Positions 21,850 to 55,813 of a stretch of 64,000 bases of DNA are shown piece after piece (position 1 is the first letter of the stretch; each line of letters opens with the position of its first letter). The notes under the pieces are model-generated. The model made no database searches. It was not told the DNA's origin and was given only the letters and a program-made list of their open reading frames with translations. The stretch spans positions 248,001-312,000 of the forward strand of contig NZ_LIQG01000020.1 of assembly GCF_001418015.1 (NCBI RefSeq), read 5' to 3'. The position numbers and the translations under genes are program-made. This DNA comes from Lacinutrix mariniflava (GTDB lineage Bacteria; Bacteroidota; Bacteroidia; Flavobacteriales; Flavobacteriaceae).

Positions 21850-23427
21850 ATGGATACTTTTTTAACTTTTATTTCTAGCATCTCTTGGTGGCTGTGGATT
21901 ATCATAGTCATAGCTATTGTAGCGCTTCGAGACATTTTTCAGCGTAGTCACACTATTAGCCATAACTTCCCAATTGTTGGACATGTTAGGTATTGGTTTG
22001 AAAGTATTGGACCAGAAATTCGTCAATATTTTGTAGCCAATAATAGAGAAGAATTACCTTTTAACCGTATAGAACGTGGTTGGATTTATGCATCTGCAAA
22101 AGGCGAAAACAATTACGAAGGTTTTGGTACAGATCGCGATATTTATGCACATCAGCATATTTTTATTAATAATGCGATGATACCTTATAAGTTAGCAGAA
22201 GATCACGTTAACAATAAAGACAAGTACTTTTTACCTTGTGCTAAAGTTATAGGCGCACATAATAAACGAAGAAGACCTTTTCGTCCTGCCTCTATTATTA
22301 ACGTCTCGGCAATGAGTTTTGGGTCGTTATCTGCTAGAGCAATAGACTCGCTTAATAAAGGTGCTAAAATGGCTGGAGCGTACCACAACACTGGAGAAGG
22401 TGGTTTATCTCCTTACCATAGTAATGGTGGAGATGTAGTGTTTCATTTTGGAACAGGTTACTTTGGTGTTCGTGCTGAAGATGGTGGTTTTTCTATGGAA
22501 AAGATGAAAAAACTTGTTGAGGATAATCCGTTTATTCGTGCTATAGAATTAAAACTCTCTCAAGGTGCTAAACCTGGAAAAGGTGGCGTTTTACCCGGAG
22601 CCAAAATAACACAACAAATAGCAGACATTCGTGGCGTTGAGATAGGTAAAGATGTTTTATCTCCACCAAATCACAAAGCATTTGATACTATTCCTGAAAT
22701 GGTTGATTTTATTGAAGCTATAGCTGAAGAAACTGGTTTGCCAGTTGGTATTAAAGCAGCCATTGGGAAACTAGAACAATGGGAAGAACTTACAGATATT
22801 ATGAAAAACACAGGAAAAGGTCCTGATTTTATTACTGTAGATGGTGGTGAAGGTGGAACTGGTGCTGCACCTCCAAGTTTTGCAGACCATGTTAGCTTAC
22901 CTTGGGTTTACGGTTTTGGTGATTTATATAAATTATTTCAGAGAAAAGAACTAGAAAAACAAGTCGTTTTTATTGGTAGTGGTAAATTAGGATTCCCTGG
23001 TAAAGCTGCAATGGCTTTTTCTATGGGAGTAGATGTTATTAATGTTGCTCGTGAAGCTATGATGAGTATTGGTTGTATTCAAGCGCAAGTTTGCCATACT
23101 AACAAATGCCCTAGTGGAGTTGCAACGCAGAGCCAATGGTTACAACGTGGTATTGATGTGCCTTTAAAATCTGAACGTGCTGCTCAATACTTTAAATCTT
23201 TTAGAAAAGAATTTATAGAAATTACACATGCTGCAGGTTACGAGCATCCTTGTGAATTTAAAATGAGTGATATTGAAATAAATGTAGACGACCATAATTT
23301 GTCTTCTGAACTTAGTGTTACTTATCAATATCAAAAAACACCCGTACCTTTTAACGGTATGCAATCTTTAAAAGATTGCGAGCATTTAGGTGGGTATTAT
23401 AAACAAAAAATAAAAATCTCAGATTAA
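21850..23427 (+). CDS. FMN-binding glutamate-synthase-family protein (GltB central-domain-like)
   Basis: A 525-residue protein with an N-terminal membrane segment (residues 11-28) and the FMN-binding/synthase domain of glutamate synthase. The TVDGGEGGTGAAPPSFADHV segment is the classical FMN/2-oxoglutarate site. Cysteines at 409, 415 and 420 (CIQAQVC...NKC) match the 3Fe-4S ligands. It lacks the glutaminase domain, so it cannot use glutamine directly. The stand-alone family is widespread and its reaction is not established. A terminator overlaps its stop codon. Confidence 0.85.
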   Translation: MDTFLTFISSISWWLWIIIVIAIVALRDIFQRSHTISHNFPIVGHVRYWFESIGPEIRQYFVANNREELPFNRIERGWIYASAKGENNYEGFGTDRDIYAHQHIFINNAMIPYKLAEDHVNNKDKYFLPCAKVIGAHNKRRRPFRPASIINVSAMSFGSLSARAIDSLNKGAKMAGAYHNTGEGGLSPYHSNGGDVVFHFGTGYFGVRAEDGGFSMEKMKKLVEDNPFIRAIELKLSQGAKPGKGGVLPGAKITQQIADIRGVEIGKDVLSPPNHKAFDTIPEMVDFIEAIAEETGLPVGIKAAIGKLEQWEELTDIMKNTGKGPDFITVDGGEGGTGAAPPSFADHVSLPWVYGFGDLYKLFQRKELEKQVVFIGSGKLGFPGKAAMAFSMGVDVINVAREAMMSIGCIQAQVCHTNKCPSGVATQSQWLQRGIDVPLKSERAAQYFKSFRKEFIEITHAAGYEHPCEFKMSDIEINVDDHNLSSELSVTYQYQKTPVPFNGMQSLKDCEHLGGYYKQKIKISD

Positions 23428-23443
23428 ATTAATCTGAGATTTT
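23413..23443 (+). terminator. Intrinsic terminator overlapping the stop of the glutamate-synthase-like gene
   Basis: A 14-bp perfect stem, AAAATCTCAGATTA / TAATCTGAGATTTT, has a 3-nt loop at 23427-23429. The left arm is within the last codons of the gene. Confidence 0.75.
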
Positions 23444-23498: not shown

Positions 23499-25259
23499 TT
23501 ACATATCTCTTATTACATGAACTGTAACTGTTGCATTTCTTGTAACACCATCATTATCTGTGTATGTTCCAGAAATAGTTAAATCTACATAACCTCCAAT
23601 CGAATCGAAGTTGGCTAGTGTATATTGTAATGTATCTGGTGCACTATGATCCATATTTAATACTGACGACTCAATACTAAAATCTGAAGTAGTATAAGTA
23701 TTAAGTGCTGATGAATTTCCATCTATATAAACAATACCTCCATTAACTTGAGAGGAAATTTGAATGTATCCATTTCCAGGGTTTAAATTTGCGTTTAAAT
23801 TTACTAAGTAAAACTCTACAGGTTCATTATCTTTTTGAATCGAAATGTATTCTGAAATTGTACTACAAGCTATTAAATTTCCTACGTTTGAATTACTAAA
23901 ATTAAAAGGCAACACTGTAGTTGTTTCAAATGTATTATAATTGAAACCTTCTAAAGTAAACGCATTTAAAGAAGCACACTGTATAACACTCATGTTAAAA
24001 GCACCATTATTAATAGCTAAACCTGAAAACTGGCTTCCGTAATTTAAACTTACATAACCACTTGTTACGTTAACATTAGAACAATCTACTAAGTTTCCTG
24101 AAATTACTTTAGCTATAACACCTGGCATTACTAAGTTTCCATAATTAATATCTGTAGTTACCGTATTAACTGTTGTTGTATAGATTTGCACACCACATTG
24201 ATCGAATGCATTTAAAGTAAACGTTTCGTTTGAAGGTATTTGTCCACAAATTTCTCCATTTCCATTAGAATAAGCTATGCGACCAGAAACTGATACACTT
24301 GACCATAATTCAATTTTTACATTAGATAAAGGTATGTTTGATCCATCCACTACTGTTAAACAAAATTGTACAGAAGGAAATGGCACGTCGTAATTCCACC
24401 ATGAAAAATGAGAGACTTCACCAATATACTTACCTCCTACTAAATTTGCTTCACCATCTTCAATCCAATGTCCAGCAACCTCATCGAAATGCCATAATGG
24501 AATAGATGAAGGCGCATTATTTGTTTGTAAAGGATCTACAGAGATTTCTATTTCTGCAACATGACCGTCTGCAATATTTAATTTTTGACCAGAATCTCCT
24601 TTCAGCTCAACATTAAGCATGCCATAAGTTTCTAATATACGTTCCTCTCCATTTGTATTTTGCGCTTGCAAACTTCCAGGCATAATAGCGTCTATTGATG
24701 GATTAGAAGTTTCTAAATGATACATATAAACATCTACATTACCAGAATATGCATTTCCGTTTTCGTCTTTAAAAGCACCATCAAAACTTACTTTAGTTCC
24801 ATTACTTAAAATCACTTCACTAGCAACTCCTGAAGCAACAGTGCCTGCTAAGTTTTCGTTAATTAACATTATACGAATTGCATTAGTACCTGTAGTAGGT
24901 ACAACAGAACGCATACCCTTTAAATAACCAGGTTTTTCTGCAGTAATAAAAGCTTGCCTTTCTTTAACGGTAGCATCAGATATAATAAAAACACCATTAG
25001 CATCTGTAATTGCCGTTTTGTTACCGATAATAATATTCGCATTATCAATTGGTAAAGATGCTGCATCAACTATTCTACCGATAAAATCTCGTTGAATACT
25101 TGATCCTTGATCTAAAGTAGATTCAGCAGTTCCGGCATTAGTATCGTTATTTGCAAAAGCTTCATCTATTGCTTCATTTGGATTACAAGAATTAAATAGC
25201 GCAGCAAATAGTACCATTACTGCTAAAATAATTTTTGAAGTTGTTTTTTTAGTTTTCAT
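23499..25259 (-). CDS. Large lipoprotein with carboxypeptidase-regulatory-like N-terminal domain (paralogue A)
   Basis: A 586-residue lipoprotein with lipobox LFNSC. Residues ~55-135 form a carboxypeptidase-D-regulatory-like beta-sandwich (RDFIGRIVDAASLPIDNANI ... GVFIISDATV). The middle contains SIPLWHFDE and EVSHFSWWNYDV, followed by a second Ig-like insert and a C-terminal domain ending TVHVIRD. The same order and motifs occur in the 585-residue protein at 32916-34673, so the two are paralogues. It has its own AGGGTAACA-N16-TATATAA promoter. Its role is unknown; I infer a surface or envelope structural function. It is the last gene of the block, just downstream of the LytTR regulator. Confidence 0.8.
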   Translation of the reverse strand: MKTKKTTSKIILAVMVLFAALFNSCNPNEAIDEAFANNDTNAGTAESTLDQGSSIQRDFIGRIVDAASLPIDNANIIIGNKTAITDANGVFIISDATVKERQAFITAEKPGYLKGMRSVVPTTGTNAIRIMLINENLAGTVASGVASEVILSNGTKVSFDGAFKDENGNAYSGNVDVYMYHLETSNPSIDAIMPGSLQAQNTNGEERILETYGMLNVELKGDSGQKLNIADGHVAEIEISVDPLQTNNAPSSIPLWHFDEVAGHWIEDGEANLVGGKYIGEVSHFSWWNYDVPFPSVQFCLTVVDGSNIPLSNVKIELWSSVSVSGRIAYSNGNGEICGQIPSNETFTLNAFDQCGVQIYTTTVNTVTTDINYGNLVMPGVIAKVISGNLVDCSNVNVTSGYVSLNYGSQFSGLAINNGAFNMSVIQCASLNAFTLEGFNYNTFETTTVLPFNFSNSNVGNLIACSTISEYISIQKDNEPVEFYLVNLNANLNPGNGYIQISSQVNGGIVYIDGNSSALNTYTTSDFSIESSVLNMDHSAPDTLQYTLANFDSIGGYVDLTISGTYTDNDGVTRNATVTVHVIRDM

Positions 25260-25299
25260 ATTAGTTAAATTTAAAATGTTATAATTTTATTATTCAACC

Positions 25300-25331
25300 T
25301 TATATAAAAATACCTTCTATTTTGTTACCCT
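25300..25331 (-). promoter_or_regulatory. Shared block promoter, site B (AGGGTAACA-N16-TATATAA)
   Basis: On the minus strand AGGGTAACA (25331-25323), a 16-nt spacer and TATATAA (25306-25300) lie 41 nt before the start of paralogue A. The same boxes and exact spacing occur at two other lipoprotein genes of the block. The spacing fits an alternative (ECF-like) sigma factor or an activator site at -35. Confidence 0.6.
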
Positions 25332-25345
25332 TATTTTTAAAAAAA

Positions 25346-26083
25346 TTAATTAAAAAGTTCTAAAAAGGTTTTTTTATTACTTCTTGATATTGGCACACGC
25401 TGACAATCTTCTAATACAAGATAACCTTCATTTTCAAAATGCCTCACCTTTTCTAGATTGATAATATGCGATTTATGACATTTAAAAAATGTGCTACTTA
25501 ATAGTTTCTCAAACTTACCTAAGTTATAAGAACTCATTATTGTTTTACCATCGATTAAGTGAATTTTAGTATATCCTTCATAACCTTCTAAATGCAATAC
25601 TTCTTCTTGAGGTATAAAAGACATCCCTTTTTGAGTAGGAACAATAATTTTATTACTTGAGATCGTGCTAGTTAAAAGGTTTACAAGTTTATGACTACTT
25701 TCTAACTCACTTTTTGTTTTTATAATGTGTAATGCTTTATTAACAGCTGTTACTAACTCTTCATCATCTATAGGTTTTAAAACATAATCTACTGCATTTT
25801 GTTTAAATGCTTCTATTGCATATTCGCTATAAGCAGTAACAAATATTACTTGAAAATCTACTATTTCTAATTGCGCTAATAAATCGAAACCATTAATTCT
25901 AGGCATTTCAATATCCAAAAACACTAAATCTGGTTGCTCCTTTTGTAATACTTTAATAGCTTCTTCAGGTTTTTGAAACGTATTCTTTATTGTAATACCC
26001 GGAAACAGCTTACCTAGTTTTTGTTCTAATCCTTTTAGGTTAGAGATTTCATCGTCTATTAATATTGCTGTTAGTGTGCTCAT
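25346..26083 (-). CDS. LytTR-family response regulator
   Basis: A 245-residue regulator with an N-terminal receiver domain (phospho-acceptor Asp57 in VFLDIEMPR, plus the VTAYSEYA and VLKPID switch residues) and a C-terminal LytTR DNA-binding domain (about residues 145-243: HLEGYEGYTKIHLIDGK, FFKCHKSHIINLEKV, PISRSNKKTF). Its start lies 3 bp from the end of the sensor kinase gene, so both are co-translated. The neighbouring lipoprotein genes are its most obvious targets; this is inferred from position. Confidence 0.92.
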   Translation of the reverse strand: MSTLTAILIDDEISNLKGLEQKLGKLFPGITIKNTFQKPEEAIKVLQKEQPDLVFLDIEMPRINGFDLLAQLEIVDFQVIFVTAYSEYAIEAFKQNAVDYVLKPIDDEELVTAVNKALHIIKTKSELESSHKLVNLLTSTISSNKIIVPTQKGMSFIPQEEVLHLEGYEGYTKIHLIDGKTIMSSYNLGKFEKLLSSTFFKCHKSHIINLEKVRHFENEGYLVLEDCQRVPISRSNKKTFLELFN

Positions 26084-26086
26084 AAA

Positions 26087-28936
26087 TTAAAGTTGCGTAA
26101 TAATAAATATCGATATGTTTCCTTTATCATTTAAACTAGGATGTAATTCCTTTTCGGAATAAAATATTTCCCAATGTCCCGATTGATTTAAATACTTGAG
26201 TCTATCTGCCAAAACGTTAGAAGATTTCACTTTTCTTTTTCCTCTTTTCTTTGTATTAATAAAACCTACGCCATCATCTATGACCTCAACTTTAAATTGT
26301 TTTTCAGTTAAAGCAATAAAATTAATGGTAACATTACCATTTTCCATTTTATTAAAGATACCATGGTTGATTGCATTTTCTACAATTGGTTGTAAAAGCA
26401 TGGTTGGCAGCTTAGTTGTTTTATTTTTTAGTTTTTCATCTAAATTAATAACATATTGAAACTTATCTTTAAAGCGTAATTTCTCGATATCAAGATAGTT
26501 AGTTAATAGTTCTACCTCCTTTTCTAAGCTAATCTCTTTTTCTTTAGACCACTCAAAAAACTGTCTAATTAGTTTCGAAAACTTAACCAAATAAGCTTCT
26601 GATGCTTCCATTTGATTATTGTTAATGTAATATTGAATAGCCGCTAAAGAGTTAAACACAAAATGCGGATTCATTTGCGAGCGCAACGCACTAAGTTGTA
26701 ACTCACTGAAACGTTTCTCTTCAACTATTTTTTTATTCTTCTTAAATTGTAAACGCCTAATTAACTCCCAAGACATATAAACAATTATTACCACCACTAA
26801 TAAAACAGATGCTATTTTAAACCAAAATGTTTGCCACCACAAGGGTTCTATAGTGAAGTTTAAGCTTTTGGTAATAGCATTAGACTGGATTTCTAATTCA
26901 TATTCCCCTGGTTGAAGATCGTTAAAATTTATAGTTTTTACATTAGAATAAATCCATTCTTTTTGAATAGGCTCTAATCTGTAATTATACAAAAGATTAG
27001 TATTGTTTTCTGAAAAATCCAAACTTGAGATTGAAACATTCATACTATTATTTTTTACATAATCTAAAACTGCTCCACATGATGCTACTATTGGCTTATT
27101 ATTATACCTAACATTTTCAAAATAGATATCCAATAATTGCGATTTGTTTTCTTGATTTTTAGGCAAAATAGCGATTCCGTTATTTGTACTTACTATAAGC
27201 TCTTCTCCTTTAACAATAATACCACTTACACTATTTGATGGTAAACCATCGTTTTTAGTGATTACTTGTTTTAAACTATAATTATTTTCTACCTTCTCGT
27301 ATTTTAACACTCCCGATTCTGTAGCTAACCAAATAATTTCATTTTCTATAAATGCATTATTTACAATTAAAAACTCTGAATCTGGTAATTGTTTAATCGT
27401 TTTTAAGTCTGAAATAAATGCTCCAAATCCATCGGTATTTAATAAAACTTCTTTATTTGAAATTTTATTGATTTTTAAAATAGATTTATTAAATTCTTGA
27501 TTAGTGAAATTAACAGATTCAAATTTACCATCCTTAAAAAACTTTAAACCATTAGATGTTGCTACTAATAGCATATTATTAAAAGTAAACAAATGGTTTA
27601 TTCCACTTTGCGCGTAGCTTGCCTCAACATTAAAACTGTTTGGATTAATTTTATTTATACCTACGGAATAAACGCCGTATAAATAGTCATTATAGTATGC
27701 TAACTCCCTTGCTTTATCGTTAACGTTATATAATCCTGAATCTACTTTAACCTCTGTAACTATATTGTTTCTAACTGCTTTTAAATTTCTTTTAGAAATA
27801 TAATATTCCGTATCTAACTCCTTAATAAAAGTTGCATTATAGATATAACTTTCTTCATTTATATATGGAACAAATTCATCTTTTAAAATATCGTATTCAT
27901 AAAAGCCTTTACTAAAAACATTAGCAATAATCTTATTGTTCACGTTGTTTATATTAGTAACACTTTTATCTACTAAACAATAATTTACATTTTGCTTCTC
28001 TATTGGTAATTGGTAAATACCATTTGTAAAAGTAGAGATCCAAATAGATCCTGTTTTATCGATAAAACCAAAATGAGCTTTTAAATTACTAGGTATATAA
28101 TATGTTTGCTTGATGTGTAGGTCTTTGTCTAAAATACCTACAAAACCTTCTCCTGAAACTTGTATTTGATTATTAATTAAATTTAATCTTACATGTTTAG
28201 ATTTTTCAATTCCAATTTCATCTTTAAATGTTCTTTTATATAATTCTAAAGTATTTAAATTGATAATGTTATACTGCTTATCGTTTACCCAATAAAAAAG
28301 ACTGTCTGTAATTTGACCTCTATAATTATTTTTTTTTAAGACAGTATTAAAATCATATTTTTTAATAGTTTTATTGTTCTTATCTTGAATTATAAGCGAA
28401 TCTAATAATGTAGTTGTTTTAAAATACGATATAATAGGATGCTTTAAATACCTTACAGCATCTAAACTTCTAAGTCTACTTTGTTGTAACAATCTCCATT
28501 TTCCATCTTTTAAAACATGGGTTTTATTGGTACTTGTTAGAAAAATTTCATTTCCAATTTGGCTGGATAAAATAGGATTAAATATCTCTCCTTTTTCTTC
28601 ACTTTCGAAAGCATGTACACTATCATTTTCAATATATCCAAGTTTAGATGTTTTAGAGAGGTACCACACTTTACCATCTGGTGTTGGATATATCTCCCAA
28701 ACGTCGTTATTAGCTAAACCATCTTTTGTTGTAAACTTTTTAAAGTCGGTACCATTGTATTTTACCAAACCTTTGTCTGTCGCAATCCAAATAAAACCCT
28801 TAACGTCTTGCGTCATTTTGTATACGTGTTTACTTGGCAAACCTTCTTTTGTTGTATAGTTGGTAAACTGTTGCGCAAACGAAAAATGCCATATCAAGAT
28901 GAAGAGTAAAGTGATATGGCGTTTTATAATATTCAA
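26087..28936 (-). CDS. Propeller-type LytS-family sensor histidine kinase
   Basis: A 949-residue membrane kinase. A signal peptide (cleavage after FSFAQ) precedes a periplasmic beta-propeller of two-component-regulator repeats (EGLPSKHVYKMTQDVKGFIWIATDKGL and later copies), then a Y_Y_Y-type Ig domain (DFSENNTNLLYNYRLE ... LQPGEYELEIQS). One membrane helix (about 712-732) leads to the cytoplasmic His_kinase domain with phospho-acceptor His758 (MNPHFVFNSL) and the ATP N-box IVENAINHGI. The propeller probably senses a periplasmic or surface-derived ligand. Partner: the LytTR regulator 3 bp downstream. The lipoprotein gene upstream ends 43 bp before it. Confidence 0.92.
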   Translation of the reverse strand: MNIIKRHITLLFILIWHFSFAQQFTNYTTKEGLPSKHVYKMTQDVKGFIWIATDKGLVKYNGTDFKKFTTKDGLANNDVWEIYPTPDGKVWYLSKTSKLGYIENDSVHAFESEEKGEIFNPILSSQIGNEIFLTSTNKTHVLKDGKWRLLQQSRLRSLDAVRYLKHPIISYFKTTTLLDSLIIQDKNNKTIKKYDFNTVLKKNNYRGQITDSLFYWVNDKQYNIINLNTLELYKRTFKDEIGIEKSKHVRLNLINNQIQVSGEGFVGILDKDLHIKQTYYIPSNLKAHFGFIDKTGSIWISTFTNGIYQLPIEKQNVNYCLVDKSVTNINNVNNKIIANVFSKGFYEYDILKDEFVPYINEESYIYNATFIKELDTEYYISKRNLKAVRNNIVTEVKVDSGLYNVNDKARELAYYNDYLYGVYSVGINKINPNSFNVEASYAQSGINHLFTFNNMLLVATSNGLKFFKDGKFESVNFTNQEFNKSILKINKISNKEVLLNTDGFGAFISDLKTIKQLPDSEFLIVNNAFIENEIIWLATESGVLKYEKVENNYSLKQVITKNDGLPSNSVSGIIVKGEELIVSTNNGIAILPKNQENKSQLLDIYFENVRYNNKPIVASCGAVLDYVKNNSMNVSISSLDFSENNTNLLYNYRLEPIQKEWIYSNVKTINFNDLQPGEYELEIQSNAITKSLNFTIEPLWWQTFWFKIASVLLVVVIIVYMSWELIRRLQFKKNKKIVEEKRFSELQLSALRSQMNPHFVFNSLAAIQYYINNNQMEASEAYLVKFSKLIRQFFEWSKEKEISLEKEVELLTNYLDIEKLRFKDKFQYVINLDEKLKNKTTKLPTMLLQPIVENAINHGIFNKMENGNVTINFIALTEKQFKVEVIDDGVGFINTKKRGKRKVKSSNVLADRLKYLNQSGHWEIFYSEKELHPSLNDKGNISIFIITQL

Positions 28937-28979
28937 TTGTAGTTGTTTAGTTTAAAACAAAAGTAATGGTTTTATTGGA

Positions 28980-29537
28980 TTAATAATTTTGGGTGACTTC
29001 TCTTTGCACTCTGCATTCTCCTGAAATATTATGTACAACATTACTATTATCTAGAAATGTACCTGTAAATGTAAATTCTAAATAGTCGCCAACATTTGAC
29101 GGGATTACAGATGTTACAGTAGCATCTATGGGATTTGAAGTATAATCTATTGAAAGTCCAAAAATATGACTTGGAGTAGTTTCACCAAAATAGAATTTTG
29201 CTGCAGGATTACTATCTAATGCAAGACCCCAATTATATATTGTATTTGGCATAAATGCTCCTGAACTATCGAAAGAAAAAACAGCTGCAATTCGTCTTAA
29301 ATCTCCACTTGATTGTTGCCCAGAAGCATTAATTTCATATTTATCTATTATTGTGGTCCCATCTGTTTCAAGATGGGCTTCTATATCATAATCGAAAATA
29401 CGCTCTACTCCATCTATAGTATATTTAAAATACTCATTTGTATTGCCAGTTGTGGTAGATCCATCATCGTCGTCACTGCAGCCAAAAGCTACTAAAACGA
29501 TAGTTAATAACATTATTGATTTTAAAATTGTTTTCAT
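28980..29537 (-). CDS. Surface lipoprotein of unknown function
   Basis: A 185-residue lipoprotein. The lipobox VAFGC is followed by SDDDD, identical to a known Bacteroidota surface-export signal, so display on the outer face is likely. The C-terminal ~40 residues (YLEFTFTGTFLDNSNVVHNISGECRVQR) have the same pattern as the C-termini of the two 585-residue paralogues (TFSGDFTDVNGITRSITGTIHVRR). I recognise no enzyme motif. It starts 4 bp downstream of the next gene of the block and lies just upstream of the sensor kinase. Confidence 0.7.
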   Translation of the reverse strand: MKTILKSIMLLTIVLVAFGCSDDDDGSTTTGNTNEYFKYTIDGVERIFDYDIEAHLETDGTTIIDKYEINASGQQSSGDLRRIAAVFSFDSSGAFMPNTIYNWGLALDSNPAAKFYFGETTPSHIFGLSIDYTSNPIDATVTSVIPSNVGDYLEFTFTGTFLDNSNVVHNISGECRVQREVTQNY

Positions 29538-29541
29538 ATTT

Positions 29542-29853
29542 TCACTTCTTATTATCGTTATAAAATTTTAAAGCATCACGAAAAGGGAAACCAAAAAAGG
29601 CATCTCTACCTTCATAGTGAATAACCTTTACACCATCTGCTATATCATTAAGAAAAATGATTTTATAGAAATTTTTTTCGTCTAAATTTCTTCCGTTAAT
29701 TAAATAATATTTTACAATTTCTGTTTTCTCAGCTTCGCTTAATTCAATTGCTTTTTCAGTTTGTGTTTTATTTTCTAAAACTGTAGTCTTACTTTCATTT
29801 TTACAATTAAAAACAAGCAAACCCAAAAGCAGAAAAATATATTTTATCTTCAT
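29542..29853 (-). CDS. Small lipoprotein of unknown function
   Basis: A 103-residue lipoprotein with lipobox LVFNC (Cys17). The mature part is Lys/Glu-rich, then has FYKIIFLNDIADGVKVIHYEGRD. No family is recognised. It is tightly packed in the block: 25 bp after the LVIVD gene and 4 bp before the 185-residue lipoprotein gene. It differs from its neighbours in lacking the acidic run after Cys, so it may stay periplasmic. Confidence 0.6.
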   Translation of the reverse strand: MKIKYIFLLLGLLVFNCKNESKTTVLENKTQTEKAIELSEAEKTEIVKYYLINGRNLDEKNFYKIIFLNDIADGVKVIHYEGRDAFFGFPFRDALKFYNDNKK

Positions 29854-29878
29854 ATTTATTTAACTTACAATACTTTAA

Positions 29879-31303
29879 TTAATTGTTAATAGATATATAA
29901 TTACCAAATCCTGGTGAATACGTATTTATAAGATTTAAACTTCCTTGACTTACATCGTAAATGTGTAATCCATCTTCATCTGTTACATACGCTATATTAG
30001 ACTTAACAGTAACACCACTTGCATTACTTAATGCTTGAGAATCTACCACCACCATATTACTTAAATCTACCATAGTAACACCATCAAAACTACTTTGTAA
30101 AGGCGCAGAACTACTTGGTTTTGTAGTTATAAAACCATAATTACTATCCACTTTAAAAGCGGTTGCATATCCTGAAATATCCACTTCAGATACCGTTGAA
30201 TAACCCAAAGTACCTTCTTCTACTTTTTTAAGTTTTGCATCTTCAATGTTTGCTACAAAATGTTGAGTACCGTTATTTCTTATCCAACTATGAAAACTTG
30301 CGTTTGCGTTCGGGTATGATGCTATATCAATATCTGTAGGAAAATCTAACATAAGATAATTAGAATTAACTGGAAAACTTGGGTCTGTAACATCAAAACC
30401 GTATAATCCGGCCCAAATACCTAAAGCAGTTATTCTATTATTAATTAACGATAAGCTCATAACGTCATGATTCTCAAAAGAAGTTACTGCTTGAGTAGAT
30501 AAATTTATATGGTGAATACCTCTATATTCATCTGAAACATATAAATAATCTCCAATTTTATCAATATCTGAAAGCCTTCCAAACTGTCCACTTTTTGCAA
30601 TAGATTGATTTAGACTAACACTACCTGTATTTGTTACATCGTAACTGTTTAAAAATGGTTCAATGGCATCAAAATAGCCTAAATATGCAGTATTATCTAT
30701 TACCTCAACAAAGTACGCTGTGTTTGCTGTTGCTGAATACTCAACATAAGGTAAGTAAGGATCAAATACATTAACAATTTTAAAATCTGAACCATCTGTA
30801 ATGTAAACATAATCTGACGCTGTTATTACCTCGTCTATATCTACACAGTATTGTCCTTCTACAAGGCCTTCTCCTGTACCAGAAAACTCTAATAATATTC
30901 TATCACCTATTTGAGATCCTCCTTGCACAGTTGTTAAGTTCATTGGATATTGTGAAGTCCCATAAAAAGGATCATTATCTATTGACAAAAAGCTACCTCC
31001 TGTTGTGTTCCAATTTTGTTCTAAAGTAGAAGTGTCTCCACTATTTACTGCAAAAGTGTAAAAATTGGTAACAGTTGGACCATTATTATTAAAAATATGG
31101 AAATAATTACCTTGAGGGTGACCTGTTACATAATGCACTGTTAACGCTTGGTCATCTATTATATAATTATCATTATAAGTAGATATAGTATAGCCTTGAG
31201 CATTAGTATCGCATGGATTGTATTGCACCTCTTCTGCATCGTCCGAATTACAACCAACAAATATTAAACCTATTATTAGTAGTAGTGTTATTTTATTTTT
31301 CAT
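29879..31303 (-). CDS. LVIVD-repeat surface lipoprotein (beta-propeller)
   Basis: A 474-residue lipoprotein with lipobox FVGC followed by NSDDAEE (surface-export-like). Repeats such as DYVYITDGSDFKIVNVFDP, DNTAYLGYFDAIEPFLNSYDVTN and ITALGIWAGLYGFDVTDPSFP are LVIVD-type propeller blades, about 40 residues each, from roughly residue 170 onward. LVIVD propellers are thought to serve as binding scaffolds. It could be the partner that feeds the sensor kinase propeller, but this is conjecture. Confidence 0.75.
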   Translation of the reverse strand: MKNKITLLLIIGLIFVGCNSDDAEEVQYNPCDTNAQGYTISTYNDNYIIDDQALTVHYVTGHPQGNYFHIFNNNGPTVTNFYTFAVNSGDTSTLEQNWNTTGGSFLSIDNDPFYGTSQYPMNLTTVQGGSQIGDRILLEFSGTGEGLVEGQYCVDIDEVITASDYVYITDGSDFKIVNVFDPYLPYVEYSATANTAYFVEVIDNTAYLGYFDAIEPFLNSYDVTNTGSVSLNQSIAKSGQFGRLSDIDKIGDYLYVSDEYRGIHHINLSTQAVTSFENHDVMSLSLINNRITALGIWAGLYGFDVTDPSFPVNSNYLMLDFPTDIDIASYPNANASFHSWIRNNGTQHFVANIEDAKLKKVEEGTLGYSTVSEVDISGYATAFKVDSNYGFITTKPSSSAPLQSSFDGVTMVDLSNMVVVDSQALSNASGVTVKSNIAYVTDEDGLHIYDVSQGSLNLINTYSPGFGNYISINN

Positions 31304-31333
31304 TTTAAAAATTTTTAAGTCGTTTATTTAAAT

Positions 31334-31387
31334 TTATTCATCTACTGTTTCATCACAATCTTTGTTACTATTATTACGAATTTCTGC
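31334..31387 (-). pseudogene. Possible relic of a MopE-type metal-binding repeat
   Basis: The 136-bp gap between two lipoprotein genes holds a minus-strand frame ending AEIRNNSNKDCDETVDE then stop. This matches the pattern EICNNGIDDDCDGxVDE of MopE-type repeats, with the first Cys changed to Arg. No start codon or full repeat is present. The match rests on one repeat only. Confidence 0.25.
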
Positions 31388-31439
31388 TATTAAAACATTT
31401 ATAAAAAACGTATAATTATGGAAACATTTATACTTGTTT

Positions 31440-32129
31440 TTAGTCTTCAAAAACACCTAATGTGCCTTCGTAATGTCCTGAAATTAATTCACCAGAAGTA
31501 TTTACAAACGTATAGTCTACATCGATTGTACTGTTGGTTGGGTTTACATTATCTATGTTTATAGCATTAATTGTAACCGAATGTCCAAGTGATGCTGGAC
31601 TATAAATAGTACTATTAGTTTCATTGCCTTCGCCAAATTCTACATTTGTACCATCTATATTTATAAACGTTTGCGGACTTGAAGAATCTACCTGTAAATC
31701 TGTAACAACATTAGAATCGTTACTTGAAGCGATATATGTATTACCAGCTGTTGGTGGAATACCTGTTTGTAAACTTGGGTTTACTGCAACATCTATGCTA
31801 AGTACAACAAATTGTGTTGTATTTACTGATAGTAACACCTCATCACTCGTTCCGTTTATATCTGTATCGTTATCTAATAATCTTCCGTTTAAAAAGAAGA
31901 ACCCATAATAATCTGGAGCTAATGGATAAGCATCATCATTATCTTCATCAATTTCTATATAAGCATTAGATGTTGGATAAAAAACAGGAGTTGTATTGTT
32001 TTCATGGTGCGTAAAACCATCGAGAGTTGTAGATGGATCTACTGGATCTGGCGTTACTTCGTCATCATTACTATCGCAACTAAACATTGTTACTGCGAGT
32101 AGGATTAAAAGTGATTTTATAATTTTCAT
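31440..32129 (-). CDS. Surface lipoprotein, tandem paralogue 1
   Basis: A 229-residue lipoprotein with lipobox MFSC followed by DSNDDE (surface-export-like). The C-terminal half (TINAINIDNVNPTNSTIDVDYTFVNTSGELISGHYEGTLG, split here only for reading) aligns with the 226-residue protein just upstream (HINAINIDYSTPSNSTIDIDYTFLDTNG). The N-terminal halves share YIEID/YITID and the YY(G/N)FFF..GR motif. This is a tandem duplication. Function unknown; all-beta fold probable. Confidence 0.7.
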   Translation of the reverse strand: MKIIKSLLILLAVTMFSCDSNDDEVTPDPVDPSTTLDGFTHHENNTTPVFYPTSNAYIEIDEDNDDAYPLAPDYYGFFFLNGRLLDNDTDINGTSDEVLLSVNTTQFVVLSIDVAVNPSLQTGIPPTAGNTYIASSNDSNVVTDLQVDSSSPQTFINIDGTNVEFGEGNETNSTIYSPASLGHSVTINAINIDNVNPTNSTIDVDYTFVNTSGELISGHYEGTLGVFED

Positions 32130-32164
32130 AATTAAATATTTTTAAGTTGAATAATGTTGTGATG

Positions 32165-32845
32165 TTAATCTAATATCAATCCTAAAGTCCCTTCATAGTG
32201 ACCTGTAATCGTTGTACCGTTTGTATCTAAAAAAGTATAATCGATATCAATAGTACTGTTTGAAGGTGTCGAATAATCTATATTGATAGCATTAATATGT
32301 ACAATTGGTCCAGATGTTCCAACGTAATACCAAGCACCATTAGCTTCTTGAATATGACAAAAATCTAGTCCGTTTTCTGTTCCAAAAGTAGGATCTGGTT
32401 GCACGTTATAACCCAATAATGAATCGGTTGAATAACCTGCATTAAATCCGTTTGTTAATACACTAGAAGCGATATAACTATTTCCAGAGCTAATTAGTCC
32501 TGCTGTTAAACTTGGATTAGAAGCACCTGCTATTACTTTTAACTTTACTAAATTGGTTGTATTGTCTGAGTAGCCATAAGCATACCCAATACCTACATCT
32601 CCAAAAGAATCAGTCATTCTACCATCTGTAAAGAAAAAATTATAATAATCTGGAAAACCTCCGCCATCAATATCTGCTTGATCAATGGTAATGTATGCGT
32701 TCTCTGTTCCTTTAAAACTATTGTTAATTGTAAAACCGTCTGTTGGTGTTACAGGAATTGTTTGTTGGTCGTCATTATTATCACAACCAACTAGCGTTAT
32801 TGTTACTAAGATTAATAATACTTTAAGTGTTTTTAATGTTTTCAT
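32165..32845 (-). CDS. Surface lipoprotein, tandem paralogue 2
   Basis: A 226-residue lipoprotein with lipobox LVGC followed by DNNDDQ. It is homologous to the next gene downstream (229 residues) over its whole length, most clearly at PDYYNFFFTDGR and at STIDIDYTF ... GHYEGTLG near the C-terminus. It starts from its own copy of the block promoter at 32871-32902. It is separated from its paralogue by 35 bp. Function unknown. Confidence 0.7.
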   Translation of the reverse strand: MKTLKTLKVLLILVTITLVGCDNNDDQQTIPVTPTDGFTINNSFKGTENAYITIDQADIDGGGFPDYYNFFFTDGRMTDSFGDVGIGYAYGYSDNTTNLVKLKVIAGASNPSLTAGLISSGNSYIASSVLTNGFNAGYSTDSLLGYNVQPDPTFGTENGLDFCHIQEANGAWYYVGTSGPIVHINAINIDYSTPSNSTIDIDYTFLDTNGTTITGHYEGTLGLILD

Positions 32846-32870
32846 AATTAAATTATTTAAGTGTTCATCT

Positions 32871-32902
32871 TTATATCAATAAGACTCTAAAAATGTTACC
32901 CT
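32871..32902 (-). promoter_or_regulatory. Shared block promoter, site C (AGGGTAACA-N16-GATATAA)
   Basis: On the minus strand AGGGTAACA (32902-32894), a 16-nt spacer and GATATAA (32877-32871) lie about 26 nt before the start of the 226-residue lipoprotein gene. It is the least perfect of the three copies but keeps the exact spacing. Confidence 0.55.
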
Positions 32903-32915
32903 AAGTTTATAGTTA

Positions 32916-34673
32916 TTATGTATCTCTTCTTACATGAATTGTACCTGTAATAGATCTTGTTATTCCATTAACATCTGTAAAATCTCCAGAAAAGGTAACA
33001 TCAATATATTCCGTTGGACCTCCAAAATTTGTAATTATAAATTCAAAATTCTGTGTGGTTGTAGTGTCTGTATTTAAATCAATTTCTGAGATAACTAATA
33101 AAGGTGCACTTGCATCTGTTAGACTATAAGAGCCAATTGCCGTGGTGTCTATTTCAAAATTAACTTCGTCAAATGATGTTTCACTATCAGCAAGCACCTG
33201 AAATCCGGTTGTACCACTATTATAAGCACTAATCATAATCTGTTGCGTTGTAACGGCTGGTCCATTATCTACTTGATAGGTAACATATTCGTCTATAGAA
33301 TTACAAGAAATAATAGTACCTATATTAGATACTGGTTGAGAAAAGATAAAAGGAATCACTCCTGTAGATTGTGAATTATTATAATCTAAACCTTCTACAA
33401 AACCGCTTGTACTTCCATTACATATTAATGTACTTATCTCAAAAACACCATTTTCTATGTATTGAATAGTTTGATATCCACCATAACTTAACTCTACATA
33501 ACCATCTATTACAGGACTACCATTACAGTCTAAAAAGTTTCCAGTAATAGTTTGTAATGCTGGACTATTGGGTATCGTAATCGTTTCGTTTATCCAAGTT
33601 GTAGCATTGGTAAAAGGACCAATAGTGTTTGTTGACAAGGTATTTCCACAATCGTCGTAAGCAGTATATGTTATCGTTTGATTAGTTGGTACTACACCAC
33701 ATATTCTTCCTAACGCATTAGATACACCTGTTCCAGGAAAAGGATTACCAGGAAAAGATAAGTCTACATTTACATTAGCTAATGGGTTTCCGTTAGCGTC
33801 CTCAACAGTTAAACATAATACTTCTGTTGGAAAATTTATATCGCAATTCCACCAAGAGAAATGAGATACAGTACCAACATATTCACTACCTGTTTTGGTA
33901 GCAAATCCATCTTCTACCCAATAACCAACAGCTTCATCAAAACTCCATAACGGAATAGTAACAGGTGCAGCGCCAGACAATACACTTGGAATTGGCATTC
34001 TAATTTCAGCAGTACTTCCAGCTGCTATTTGAAGAGGATTACCACTTGCATCTGTTAAACTAACATGCAACATACCATAGGTTTGTAACATTTCGAAATC
34101 ATCTGCAGTTGTTTTACCTAAAAGCATTCCGGGCATTTCGTTAGCAATAGTTGGACTCGCAGGATCTATATGGTTCATCGAGTAATTAACAACTCCGTTA
34201 TAAGCATTACCGGAAGCATCTTCAAAACCGCCATTAAAGGTTACTTTTGTTCCATTAATTAATTGTATTTGACTGTTTGATGGTAGTGGCTGTATGTTTT
34301 CTGTTAACAATACTAAATCTACCTGACTAACATCTTGTGTAGGCGCTACCGTTTTTAATCCTTTTAAATAGCCTATTTTACTTACTTCTATATATGCAAA
34401 GCGCTCTTGTACTGTAGCATTTTTTATAATAAAAATACCTTTTGCATCTGTTGTTGCCGTTTTTGTACCTATGCTTACTAAAGCGTTACTAATTGCAACG
34501 TTAGATTCGTCTTTTATAGAACCCATAAAATCACGTTGCACTTGACTTCCAAATTCAAATTCTTGATTTGTTCCTCCGGGAGTACCTTCGCCGTCTATCG
34601 ATTCGTTTTTATTACAACTATAAATGGTAAGCGCTAATAAAAATAGCAATATTGGTTTTAAAAAATTTTTCAT
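32916..34673 (-). CDS. Large lipoprotein with carboxypeptidase-regulatory-like N-terminal domain (paralogue B)
   Basis: A 585-residue lipoprotein with lipobox TIYSC. Residues ~50-130 (RDFMGSIKDESNVAISNALV ... GIFIIKNATV) form the carboxypeptidase-D-regulatory-like domain. Central motifs TIPLWSFDE and TVSHFSWWNCDI, the later GRICGVVP and the end IHVRRD match paralogue A at 23499-25259 in the same order. The gene begins 35 bp after the 198-residue lipoprotein gene, so it probably shares that gene's promoter (site A). Function unknown. No catalytic motif is seen. Confidence 0.8.
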   Translation of the reverse strand: MKNFLKPILLFLLALTIYSCNKNESIDGEGTPGGTNQEFEFGSQVQRDFMGSIKDESNVAISNALVSIGTKTATTDAKGIFIIKNATVQERFAYIEVSKIGYLKGLKTVAPTQDVSQVDLVLLTENIQPLPSNSQIQLINGTKVTFNGGFEDASGNAYNGVVNYSMNHIDPASPTIANEMPGMLLGKTTADDFEMLQTYGMLHVSLTDASGNPLQIAAGSTAEIRMPIPSVLSGAAPVTIPLWSFDEAVGYWVEDGFATKTGSEYVGTVSHFSWWNCDINFPTEVLCLTVEDANGNPLANVNVDLSFPGNPFPGTGVSNALGRICGVVPTNQTITYTAYDDCGNTLSTNTIGPFTNATTWINETITIPNSPALQTITGNFLDCNGSPVIDGYVELSYGGYQTIQYIENGVFEISTLICNGSTSGFVEGLDYNNSQSTGVIPFIFSQPVSNIGTIISCNSIDEYVTYQVDNGPAVTTQQIMISAYNSGTTGFQVLADSETSFDEVNFEIDTTAIGSYSLTDASAPLLVISEIDLNTDTTTTQNFEFIITNFGGPTEYIDVTFSGDFTDVNGITRSITGTIHVRRDT

Positions 34674-34708
34674 TATTTATAATTTTAGAAGATTATTGTT
34701 TTTTTTTA

Positions 34709-35305
34709 TTAATTAGTTTCAAATCCTAAAGCGATATACGGAATAGCGGTATCATATTCTGCAGTTCCACCACCTTCAAAACTTGAGGCTTCAAATTTTA
34801 CATTAACACCTGTTATTGGATATAAAAAAGAAGTGTTATCGGTTCTCTCTATAATTTTACCTTCTGCTTGATTTATATTAGTATAACCGGGAGCAATTGT
34901 TCTCCATACACTAATATAATCTCCTGCTTGTACACTTAATGTTTGAGAGATATTATGAAATTCTAACTGAGATTGCGAAAATGAAAAATCATCTTCGTAA
35001 ATAAATCCGTTATTATTATTCGTCATTTTAATAGTATAATTACCCGAATAGCCTACAGGATTTTGATAACCTACACTGCATATATTACCATCGGCAAGTA
35101 TTCTTATTGCATAATGGTGTACTTCTAATGGTTTTCCATCAATTATACCTGTGTAACCGTTTGCACTAGAAAAAGTATCTGCTACTTCTGTAATTACATA
35201 ACCTTCGTTACAACTATTTACAGGTGTATTTAAATTATCGTCGCTACTGCAGCTAGATATTATAAAAACCAATAGTATTGAAAGTGTTTTAAGTGAAATT
35301 TTCAT
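34709..35305 (-). CDS. Surface lipoprotein, first gene of the block
   Basis: A 198-residue lipoprotein with lipobox ISSC followed by SSDDN (surface-export-like). The mature region is Asn/Thr-rich and probably beta. I recognise no family. It is the first gene of the ten-gene minus-strand block and lies directly downstream of promoter site A. Confidence 0.65.
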   Translation of the reverse strand: MKISLKTLSILLVFIISSCSSDDNLNTPVNSCNEGYVITEVADTFSSANGYTGIIDGKPLEVHHYAIRILADGNICSVGYQNPVGYSGNYTIKMTNNNNGFIYEDDFSFSQSQLEFHNISQTLSVQAGDYISVWRTIAPGYTNINQAEGKIIERTDNTSFLYPITGVNVKFEASSFEGGGTAEYDTAIPYIALGFETN

Positions 35306-35330
35306 GATTTAAGTTTTAGTATTTATAAAC

Positions 35331-35362
35331 TTATATAAAGACAGCAACCATTTTGTTACCCT
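35331..35362 (-). promoter_or_regulatory. Shared block promoter, site A (AGGGTAACA-N16-TATATAA)
   Basis: On the minus strand AGGGTAACA (35362-35354), a 16-nt spacer and TATATAA (35337-35331) lie 26 nt before the start of the first lipoprotein gene. The preceding TTTTTAAAAATA stretch is also shared with site B. Confidence 0.6.
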
Positions 35363-35588: not shown

Positions 35589-36110
35589 ATGGGAGATCAA
35601 TTATTGAATTTGTTAATGTATGCTGTACCGTCTTTAATTGTTGGAGCTATAGCTTTTTTGTTTTTTAGAGAGCATGTAGAGAACGAAGATAACAGACGAA
35701 AATTTTTAATAGTTAAGCAGCTTCAAAAGGAATCATTACCTCAACGTTTTCAGGCCTACGAGCGTTTCTCGTTGTTTTTAGAACGTATTTCTCCAAATAA
35801 ATTATTAATTAGAATTTCTCCTGTATCCTCTAATAAAGACGACTACGAAATACTTTTAATAAATAGCATAGAACAAGAATTCGAACACAACTTATCGCAA
35901 CAAATTTATGTTACAGACAGTTGTTGGAGTATTATTAATGCTTCTAAAAGTGCTACTATTCAATTAATAAGAAAAGCTGCACTAAGCGATAAAATAGATT
36001 CTGCAGATAAACTAAGAGAAACTATATTAACAGATATGATGGATAAAACACCTCCAAGTAGCGCAGGATTATCTTACATAAAACAAGAGGTTAGCGAACT
36101 TTGGCAGTAG
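35589..36110 (+). CDS. Conserved Bacteroidota membrane-anchored protein (DUF7935-like)
   Basis: A 173-residue protein with one N-terminal membrane segment (about residues 7-27, LLMYAVPSLIVGAIAFLFF) and a cytoplasmic remainder with QAYERFSLFLERISPNKLL and EFEHNLSQQIYV. I recall this pattern from a conserved flavobacterial family (DUF7935) of unknown function. It is monocistronic and followed by an imperfect terminator. Confidence 0.7.
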   Translation: MGDQLLNLLMYAVPSLIVGAIAFLFFREHVENEDNRRKFLIVKQLQKESLPQRFQAYERFSLFLERISPNKLLIRISPVSSNKDDYEILLINSIEQEFEHNLSQQIYVTDSCWSIINASKSATIQLIRKAALSDKIDSADKLRETILTDMMDKTPPSSAGLSYIKQEVSELWQ

Positions 36111-53576: not shown

Positions 53577-55613
53577 TTATTTATTAATAATCTTCTTTTT
53601 TATAACGCGTTGCCCATCGTTTATATGAATAATGTATGTTCCAGACTCCAAGTTTTTTAAGTTTATCTGTTCTGAAAAGCTTCCGTTTACTACCACACTC
53701 CCATTTAAACTATAAACACTGTAGTTTACCTTGCGTTGGTCTTTCATATTTAAAGTTAAGCCACTATAAGCATTATAAATGACTGAATTAAAAATGGGTT
53801 TTTCATCCTCTAACGATTCCCCTAACAACTTTTTAGTACGCGCTCCTAATTTTGCACTACTTCCTATATTTAAGGTATAATCCTCTACTTCTCCATAACT
53901 AAAGGTTTCGCATGGTGTTGGTGCTGCATTATATTTCATAGATACTCGCATTCTAGTTGCTCCAGCTAATGCAGAACTAGGAATAGTAAAGGTTCTTGAT
54001 AAATTACCAGCACTTGATGATGAGCCGCTTGCTGCTTCCTCGTTAGCATCGAAAGTGCCATCTTGATTATAATCTATCCATACTTTCCAAAATTCGGTAT
54101 ACGCTTGTCCCGTAAAACCGGTACTAAATATAATCGTATTAGAACCATAACCAACATTACCAACCATATTAGTATTATCTATATAACCACCATTTGCTCC
54201 AGAACTGTTAGAAATACCTCCAATACTTACAAAATCTATAAACTCGTCTGCAACGCTATTTCCTTTTGTACTGCAATATGTTACAGTTGGATTTGGAGGG
54301 TTTGAGCCACCACCATCTACGGTATGTGTTCCTAAATTAGAAAACGAATCTTTAATAAAAGTATCCCATTCTGAAACTGTATATGTTGCATTTGGAGAAT
54401 CTATAGCTGTTTTTCTTCGTAAAGTAACATCTTTAGCAAAGTTTGAACTCCCACCATTAAACGTACCTACAATATCTACCAATACTCCATTTTTAAAGAG
54501 ACCAACAGGATCGTTTCCATTAAAAGACATGGCAGTATTTGTTGTTGTTACATCTGCATTTGCTTTGGCTAGAGTGCTAGCATTACTATTGGCTATTACA
54601 AAAACAGTTGCATTAGTAAGCGCACCACTTAGTGTGTAACCAGTATTCCAATTTCCAGAACCGTTAGTTTGCTTTTTAAGTGTGTAAGCAGAAAGGTTTA
54701 CCGTGTTTCCTGTAAAGTTGGCTATCTCAATAACTTTGTTATTAGAAGAACCTTCTACGTATTCTGAAATAAACAACTCGTCTGCTGTTCCTGTATTATC
54801 TCCAGTTCCTGGATCTGTTCCGTTTCCGTTTCCAAAACGATCTTCGGCCTGTACACCTCCCCAAATTTGGGTTGCAAATGCAGGATTGTCTATAAACGGA
54901 TTCCTGTTACCTTGAGCGCTTTCAATTGCCTGATTACGTTGGTCTTCGAATGCATTAACTGGGTCTTCGGCATTCCATTGTAAAAATAAATCTACCATAT
55001 TACTATCTCCAGAAACAGTGTTTCCAATGCCTACATTTACAGGTAAGCATCTATTATTATAGCGTAAATACATATAAAGCATCATTCTTGCTACATCACC
55101 TTTCCATTCGTCTCCAGGATAAAAATAACCTTGAGATGTAACATCTGCATCACCAGAACCATCTGCAAATTTTCTATTATTTCTAGTAGAATTCATTTGT
55201 CCGTCGCTTGCTCTTAAATGGTGCGCATCACTGCCAGGTCCCGAGGTTCCTAAATTCGGTGTTCCTAAAGATTTTGGGTAACCATGTTCTCTATTCCATG
55301 TACCAACTCCTGTGCCATTAGCATCTTTATCTCTTGTTCTGTCTGTTTTTGCAACACCATCTGCATCATTATAACCATAGACAAGTAATACATTACTGCT
55401 ATTGTTTGGATCTAAGTCTGCTTGTTTTAGTGCATTCCAAACGCCAGGAGTGTAGCTTAAAAAGTTACTATGTGTACTTATTATTTTTGTTGCTAAATCC
55501 TCTTTTAGAGCAGTACCACTTTGGGTTAAATCGACATCGTTATAATAAGACGGGACTTGCGAAAATGCTATTGTAGAACCTAATAGCAAGAGTAATAGTA
55601 GTTTGTTTTTCAT
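53577..55613 (-). CDS. Secreted endonuclease I-family nuclease with LTD, GEVED and T9SS sorting domains
   Basis: Start set at 55613, the Met directly before the signal peptide (cleavage at IAFSQ); a longer frame to 55706 would put 31 basic residues in front of it. The product has 678 residues. The endonuclease I domain (about 20-260) has NREHGYPKS and HLRASDGQMNSTRNNRKFAD. A lamin-tail domain follows (LFISEYVEGSSNNKVIEI), then a GEVED domain (WIDYNQDGTFDANEEA). The C-terminal ~75 residues end in GTYIIHINDGQRVIKKKIINK, a type A T9SS sorting signal. It is exported by T9SS and degrades extracellular nucleic acid. Confidence 0.85.
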   Translation of the reverse strand: MKNKLLLLLLLGSTIAFSQVPSYYNDVDLTQSGTALKEDLATKIISTHSNFLSYTPGVWNALKQADLDPNNSSNVLLVYGYNDADGVAKTDRTRDKDANGTGVGTWNREHGYPKSLGTPNLGTSGPGSDAHHLRASDGQMNSTRNNRKFADGSGDADVTSQGYFYPGDEWKGDVARMMLYMYLRYNNRCLPVNVGIGNTVSGDSNMVDLFLQWNAEDPVNAFEDQRNQAIESAQGNRNPFIDNPAFATQIWGGVQAEDRFGNGNGTDPGTGDNTGTADELFISEYVEGSSNNKVIEIANFTGNTVNLSAYTLKKQTNGSGNWNTGYTLSGALTNATVFVIANSNASTLAKANADVTTTNTAMSFNGNDPVGLFKNGVLVDIVGTFNGGSSNFAKDVTLRRKTAIDSPNATYTVSEWDTFIKDSFSNLGTHTVDGGGSNPPNPTVTYCSTKGNSVADEFIDFVSIGGISNSSGANGGYIDNTNMVGNVGYGSNTIIFSTGFTGQAYTEFWKVWIDYNQDGTFDANEEAASGSSSSAGNLSRTFTIPSSALAGATRMRVSMKYNAAPTPCETFSYGEVEDYTLNIGSSAKLGARTKKLLGESLEDEKPIFNSVIYNAYSGLTLNMKDQRKVNYSVYSLNGSVVVNGSFSEQINLKNLESGTYIIHINDGQRVIKKKIINK

Positions 55614-55813
55614 TTTTATGGGTGGATTTGGTTTGTTTACTAAAGATATTCTATTAAATAACACCTTTTTAAGTCTTCGTCTTTTATGTTTTAAAATTAG
55701 TAACAATATTCCGCTTAAGCTATGCTAATAGGTTAATTCGGCTTAAAAAAACTGTTAACAACTATTTTTTAAACAAATCACTTTTTTCAATTTAAATAAG
55801 CCACAACAATTCT

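Follow-up and report, generated by a model that had tools for sequence, protein, structure and literature searches.

Which regulator controls a row of ten genes in the flavobacterium Lacinutrix mariniflava, eight of which encode lipoproteins and two a sensor kinase and a response regulator? The genes (the block) lie in a stretch of 64,000 nucleotides, hereafter the window (G000:C20:248001-312000, on contig NZ_LIQG01000020.1), of a 3.97 Mb assembly in 32 contigs. An earlier note had described ten same-strand genes with short gaps, encoding eight lipoproteins, a LytTR regulator and a propeller LytS kinase, and had proposed that the regulator drives the lipoprotein genes within one surface system. 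The description was confirmed: ten minus-strand open reading frames (ORFs) run from 35305 to 23499 in the order L1, C585a, L3, L4, LV5, L6, L7, kinase, LytTR regulator and C585b, with intergenic gaps of 35, 70, 35, 136, 25, 4, 43, 3 and 86 nt. The names L1 to L7, LV5, C585, K145 and lip324 were coined in the present analysis. The proposed control was not borne out, as the only common upstream signal found is a two-box site that also lies beside an unlinked gene for an extracytoplasmic function (ECF) sigma factor. The block genes are probably switched on by this distant sigma, instead of or besides the kinase pair, and two modules appear to have merged at one chromosomal slot, one a lipoprotein regulon under an ECF sigma and the other made up of kinase-pair and lipoprotein genes (probability about 0.7).

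The two-box site and the ECF sigma locus

The window contains three copies of AGGGTAACA, against an expectation of 0.28; all are inside the block and on its strand, starting at 35362 before L1, at 32902 before L3 and at 25331 before C585b. Every copy is followed by 16 bases and then by TATATAA or GATATAA. Site P1 (35331-35362, minus strand, TATATAA) scores 29.3 bits with the matrix described below, the 35-base model ending 22 nt before L1. Site P2 (32871-32902, minus strand, GATATAA) scores 30.4 bits and lies 13 nt after the C585a stop codon. Site P3 (25300-25331, minus strand, TATATAA) scores 34.7 bits, with the model end 37 nt before C585b. The earlier note contained neither these repeats nor the homology of L3 and L4, though it placed the end of the block at 35362, the first base of P1. 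Genome-wide, the core GGTAACA-N16-KATATAA has five exact matches, of which three are in the block and the other two beside an unlinked ECF sigma gene on contig C26; the reversed control pattern has two. Matches with one mismatch number six more, which is within chance (10 for the control when up to one mismatch is allowed). ECF promoters typically have a two-box geometry and an AAC in the first box.

The sigma gene encodes 193 aa (G000:C26:55967-56545, a different contig from that of the block) and is recognised as an ECF sigma by TIGR02937 (54.8 bits, cut-off 42.9) and PF04542 (28.0 bits, cut-off 24). Of the two C26 sites, one lies in the gap between the sigma and a divergent gene, K145, and the other upstream of a 324-aa lipoprotein (lip324). 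The same promoter-like site is common to the upstream regions of the candidate targets and to the sigma locus, as in an ECF regulon. The locus was found outward from the block: the block-derived pattern was run over 199 genomes of the family, and most matches in other sigma-bearing genera adjoin the sigma.

The strict pattern is present in 14 of the 199 family genomes and the sigma in 27 (protein search, E 1e-30), with both in nine (Fisher test 5.3e-6; 2.5e-5 minus the own genome). In the eight other sigma-bearing genomes, 8 of 10 strict matches are no more than 2 kb from the sigma gene. The five pattern genomes lacking a sigma match have six strict matches, about the level of the reversed control (seven in seven genomes). 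Eighteen of the 27 sigma-bearing genomes do not have the strict pattern, and most of these carry the GATATAA variant at the sigma. Within the genus the sigma was found in 11 of 13 genomes (E 1e-25). Altogether 36 sigma loci were compared, 27 from the family genomes (own genome and G091 included) and nine from further genus genomes. A site divergent from the sigma is present in 34 of them, spread over more than 20 other genera: a script detected it in 31 (at least 20 bits, within 250 bp of the sigma), and three more (L184, L186, L196), hidden from the script by an ORF start chosen too early, were seen directly. A TPR protein adjoins the sigma in 35 of the 36 loci; in the remaining one a contig ends beside the sigma. 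One hydrophobic stretch was read by eye in the TPR protein.

A matrix of 35 columns was prepared from 51 unique sites at the sigma loci of other genomes, a few of them inside sigma genes. It ranks the block sites first to third among all positions of the window (34.7, 30.4 and 29.3 bits; the fourth position scores 11.3), and the top score in 200 first-order Markov windows was 19.4. The matrix is not a blind test: the training pattern came from the block and sigma loci and fixed most of both boxes, so that only the flanks and spacer were free. With both boxes thus fixed in advance, the argument rests mainly on the positions of the pattern in other genomes. Scores at the sigma loci are likewise not independent, many of these sites having trained the matrix, but their position beside the sigma is. 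A site-like stretch within the sigma coding sequence (18 rows) was not counted as evidence.

Protein comparisons also connect the two loci. The sigma-locus lipoproteins and C585 have a common domain (C585a residues ~137-336; hhalign probability 96.8, E 2.6e-10). In the same comparisons, alignments of the sigma-locus lipoproteins with L3 and L4 were confined to the signal-peptide stretches. A relative of L1 (39% identity, E 1.9e-42) at the G038 sigma locus stands directly behind a 41.7-bit site located 34 nt upstream, and a distant relative of L4 in G071 (26% identity, E 1.7e-10) stands directly behind a site of 26.9 bits. In the own genome a further site of 26.2 bits (L174:4145, G000:C26:756145) precedes the gene of an OmpA-family protein with a carboxypeptidase-regulatory-like (CarboxypepD_reg) domain; by mismatch count alone this site is within chance, and the gene is a possible further target.

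Several side observations concern these loci. The 26.2-bit site lies ~5 kb before the nearest regulator paralogue (47% identity), and in G206, a genome with no sigma match, a site follows a gene that resembles, by eye, the 125-aa gene at that same site. Sites at L178:12578, L177:8979-9000 and L184:914 form almost perfect inverted repeats (GGTAAC...GTTACC) and may reflect a second layer of control. Beside the sigma locus (L170:12373-17413) lie genes for a PKD/DUF7849 protein, a CHAT+TPR protein and a retropepsin-like protein. In G203 the usual K145 position is taken by a protein with a type IX secretion system (T9SS) sorting tail.

Separation of the site from the kinase pair

Orthologues of the block regulator (at least 72% identity) are found in 6 of the 13 genus genomes. 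In all five readable blocks, the own included, the kinase pair is accompanied by L4/L6/L7-type lipoproteins; in the sixth genome, G205, the contig ends in the kinase. The C585 genes do not always accompany this pair. In G203, G201 and G207 C585 and the site are present at the same slot with no orthologous kinase pair, the best regulator matches being only 35-39% identical. A distant kinase/regulator pair (38/30% identity) does occur in G207, ~7 kb from C585 and beyond recG. Conversely, G209 has the kinase pair (regulator 79% identical) with L4-, L6- and L7-like lipoproteins at the slot, but neither a C585 match nor a site in the block stretch.

A census of C585 genes gave the same picture. Sigma-bearing genomes contain 13 short-type genes (582-589 aa; one split gene, in G201). 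Ten have the site directly upstream (nine score at least 20 bits, the tenth 14.3), and three stand second behind L1, which has the site. In genomes with no sigma match the site was found at none of 12 short-type (586-646 aa) and none of three long-type genes. The long type (686-803 aa) lacks it in sigma-bearing genomes also (0 of 9; 0 of 12 overall). No site was detected within 250 bp upstream of kinase, regulator, L4, LV5, L6 or L7 genes. The census covers genes with a long fetch and a complete ORF, leaving out G015, G116, G206, G079 (6 matches), G179:C3 and G199:C23; L067 and L173 are one place and were counted once, and L041 and L042, which repeat L062 and L063, stand outside it. The site therefore tracks the presence of the sigma and, alongside it, short-type C585, L1 and L3; it does not track the kinase pair.

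As L1/C585 and the kinase module are separable, they are not one system as earlier proposed. What survives of that proposal is that surface lipoproteins are plausible and that the kinase pair keeps company with L4/L6/L7-type genes across relatives. Occurrence of the pair and the lipoproteins at unrelated loci, which the earlier note had named as grounds for rejecting the idea, applies to C585 only, through the three genomes without an orthologous pair.

The kinase may have a promoter of its own. The octamer TACTTTTG (28958-28965, minus strand, read by eye) lies upstream of it and fits TAnnTTTG, the box of the primary sigma factor in flavobacteria according to the available part of a transcriptome study (PMC9723704). 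TACWTTTG precedes the kinase in 5 of 5 genomes compared, the own included (also by eye), perhaps as a housekeeping-type promoter; an accompanying -33 element was not established. A terminator-like hairpin after C585b (23413-23443, minus strand, pattern scan) is the only one listed on the block strand between 23300 and 35700. It is weak: three were listed on both strands and 4.0 expected. No terminator-like site is listed inside the block on its strand, so transcription starting at P1 and P2 may continue as far as the kinase. A generic sigma-70 scan was discarded, its 59 sites being below the shuffles (mean 73). A second motif upstream of the first gene is common to G000, G204 and G209; it was seen by eye only and nothing was concluded from it.

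The slot itself is variable, with zero to three C585 copies in the genomes read. Elsewhere it contains MopE-motif lipoproteins and an LGT-family gene (G204), a DUF3179 gene (G205) or further small lipoproteins (G209). The kinase/lipoprotein block of G204 starts with the LGT-family gene (prolipoprotein diacylglyceryl transferase; L173:8858-9658, which is L067:18858-19658).

Alternative readings and the proposed regulation

This variation is what would be expected if the slot were a hot spot, at which unrelated lipoprotein genes piled up with no joint function and the promoters came with duplicated C585 copies. However, P1 and P2 precede genes other than C585 and are kept in three genomes, and relatives of L1 and L4 carry the site in other genera. 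The hot-spot explanation is doubtful but is the alternative to be taken most seriously. Control by the block LytTR regulator, which would bind the GGTAACA box and, with the kinase, drive the lipoproteins, is very improbable. The regulator gene lies inside the block, is conserved alongside L4-type lipoproteins and is directly followed by P3, and other LytTR proteins exist in every genome, so that a paralogue is conceivable. Yet the sites before C585 in G203, G201 and G207 occur with regulator matches of low identity only, sites adjoin the sigma in more than 20 other genera, and the G209 block has a close regulator but no site. LytTR control was dropped as the leading view because site and kinase pair each occur where the other is missing.

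A DNA-binding protein other than the sigma might instead read the first box as a dyad and turn on a promoter that has the ATATAA box; this too is unlikely, if less so. Several sigma-locus sites have near-palindromic halves, for example GGGGTAAC-N5-GTTACCCC, such as a repressor or activator acting as a dimer might bind; this also counts against sigma recognition. The second half is largely absent from the block and C585 copies, though, and what does not vary is a pair of boxes 16 nt apart, with the sigma gene and its TPR partner as constant neighbours.

Further points weigh against control by the distant sigma. The family test rests on nine genomes, and related genomes are not independent. Both G071 matches lie ~0.46-0.47 Mb from its sigma, one before the L4-like lipoprotein and the other with no listed gene behind it. 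G206 (89% complete) has no sigma match yet has one site, and the weak site of 14.3 bits belongs to the C585 of G072. The sigma loci L207 and L208, whose sigmas have the lowest identity (54% and 51%), are without a site. No site is directed into the sigma gene in the 36 loci (best score -8.6 bits), so the usual ECF autoregulation was not seen, and the TPR protein matched no anti-sigma model.

Control by the ECF sigma remains the preferred reading. Its first module would consist of the C585 lipoproteins, with L1 and here L3 onward, behind GGTAACA-N16-[T/G]ATATAA promoters transcribed by the unlinked sigma. The second would be the LytS/LytTR kinase pair with L4/L6/L7-type lipoproteins. An envelope signal would act on the TPR protein next to the sigma, a putative membrane anti-sigma factor, and the sigma would be freed. 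RNA polymerase would then start at P1, P2 and P3 and at the sigma's own locus (K145 and the lipoprotein with the C585 domain). The lipoproteins with acidic starts would go to the cell surface, and read-through from P2 may raise the kinase pair too, which would add a second control. A bolder and rather doubtful extension is that the ECF sigma has a small dispersed regulon of beta-domain surface lipoproteins and that one Lacinutrix clade captured a LytS/LytTR pair behind P2. The sigma would then switch on a sensor of the surface being built, a two-tier feedback on surface state in the reverse order of PorXY-SigP.

In the PorX-PorY-SigP cascade of Porphyromonas gingivalis, according to the available part of PMC4800418, the response regulator makes direct contact with the sigma protein, and the genes controlled are those of type IX secretion. 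Both cases combine a two-component pair and an ECF sigma around surface genes in Bacteroidota, with the parts at separate loci. They differ in that the block regulator is of the DNA-binding LytTR type and lies inside the target block, that the targets are lipoproteins, and that the link between pair and sigma is hypothetical here. The transcriptome study mentioned above (PMC9723704), in its available part, counted seven ECF factors and tied one motif, SM6, to ECF-type recognition. The SM6 promoters of Flavobacterium psychrophilum are predicted to be ECF-type, and their targets include type IX secretion genes and one sigma/anti-sigma pair. The block sites are likewise predicted ECF-type promoters, in the same family, but have ATATAA and a GGTAACA first box, unlike the CGT box in the -10 region of SM6. 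According to that study, further ECF-controlled starts may await discovery.

No description of this motif or regulon emerged from the searches made, which covered open-licence papers. ECF regulons for surface proteins are already known as a kind; should a kinase pair prove to be placed under an ECF promoter, that would be a variant. The analysis yields a specific sigma family (27 of the 199 sampled family genomes), a sharply defined promoter-like motif and a list of named targets, and offers a candidate regulator for surface lipoproteins where flavobacterial ECF sigma regulons are largely unassigned.

Proteins and setting of the block

Eight of the ten block proteins are lipoproteins by their N-terminus (a hydrophobic signal and a lipobox-like Cys). 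The five acidic runs reported earlier directly after this Cys were found again: in L1 (198 aa, 34709-35305, minus strand like all block genes), CSSDDN; in L3 (226 aa, 32165-32845), CDNNDDQ; in L4 (229 aa, 31440-32129), CDSNDDE; in LV5 (474 aa, 29879-31303), CNSDDAEE; and in L7 (185 aa, 28980-29537), CSDDDD. The remaining three, C585a (585 aa, 32916-34673), C585b (586 aa, 23499-25259) and L6 (103 aa, 29542-29853), lack such a run and start with CNKNES, CNPNEA or CKNESK. Like the lipoprotein export signal (LES) of Bacteroidetes described in the available part of PMC5080379, L7 carries the B. fragilis consensus SDDDD, and the four other acidic starts are polar and then acidic; C585a, C585b and L6 differ in being without it. 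The likeness is one of sequence alone, and a surface location of the acidic-start lipoproteins is plausible.

The two proteins at or near the ends, described as homologous and 585 residues long, are indeed homologous (39% identity over 584 positions) with lengths of 585 and 586 aa. L3 and L4 form a second homologous pair (43% identity). A protein of Lacinutrix algicola is 97% identical to C585a. None of the eight lipoproteins matched a Pfam or NCBIfam family above its cut-off; LV5 contains a weak LVIVD repeat (PF08309, 10.3 bits, below cut-off). The C585a N-terminus resembles CarboxypepD_reg (PF13620, E 3.8e-7, below the curated cut-off), and the predicted structure is mostly beta (pLDDT 62.5). 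With Foldseek only the N-terminal domain was clear, matching a carboxypeptidase D transthyretin-like domain (5aq0_A, TMt 0.76) and a SusC NTE domain (9hfj, TMt 0.79). With moderate model confidence, C585 is predicted to be a beta-rich multidomain lipoprotein whose first domain is transthyretin-like; a role as a stalk or in binding would be in keeping with this. Longer Foldseek matches of C585a (pilins and others) were discarded (query-normalised TM at most 0.18 among the 50 matches listed), as was the predicted structure of L4 (mean pLDDT 31). A match of C585 to the extracellular part of FAM171 was weak and not used (Pfam E 0.0017; PDB 9y6n, E 0.015).

The kinase (26087-28936) has Reg_prop, Y_Y_Y and His_kinase (PF06580) domains above Pfam cut-offs and HATPase_c under its cut-off, and its partner (25346-26083) has Response_reg and LytTR domains. 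Propeller LytS kinases with LytTR regulators have the same domain make-up, and the pair is ordinary in itself; the own genome has 18 LytTR matches. No SusC TonB receptor/SusD lipoprotein pair was matched by Pfam in the ten block proteins or seven scanned neighbours, so the block does not classify as a Sus-like polysaccharide utilisation locus. It is flanked by a glutamate-synthase-domain gene (21850-23427) on one side and, on the other, by a DUF7935 gene (35589-36110) with a patatin-type gene after it. Elsewhere in the window (53577-55706), Endonuclease I is combined with GEVED, lamin-tail and T9SS sorting domains.

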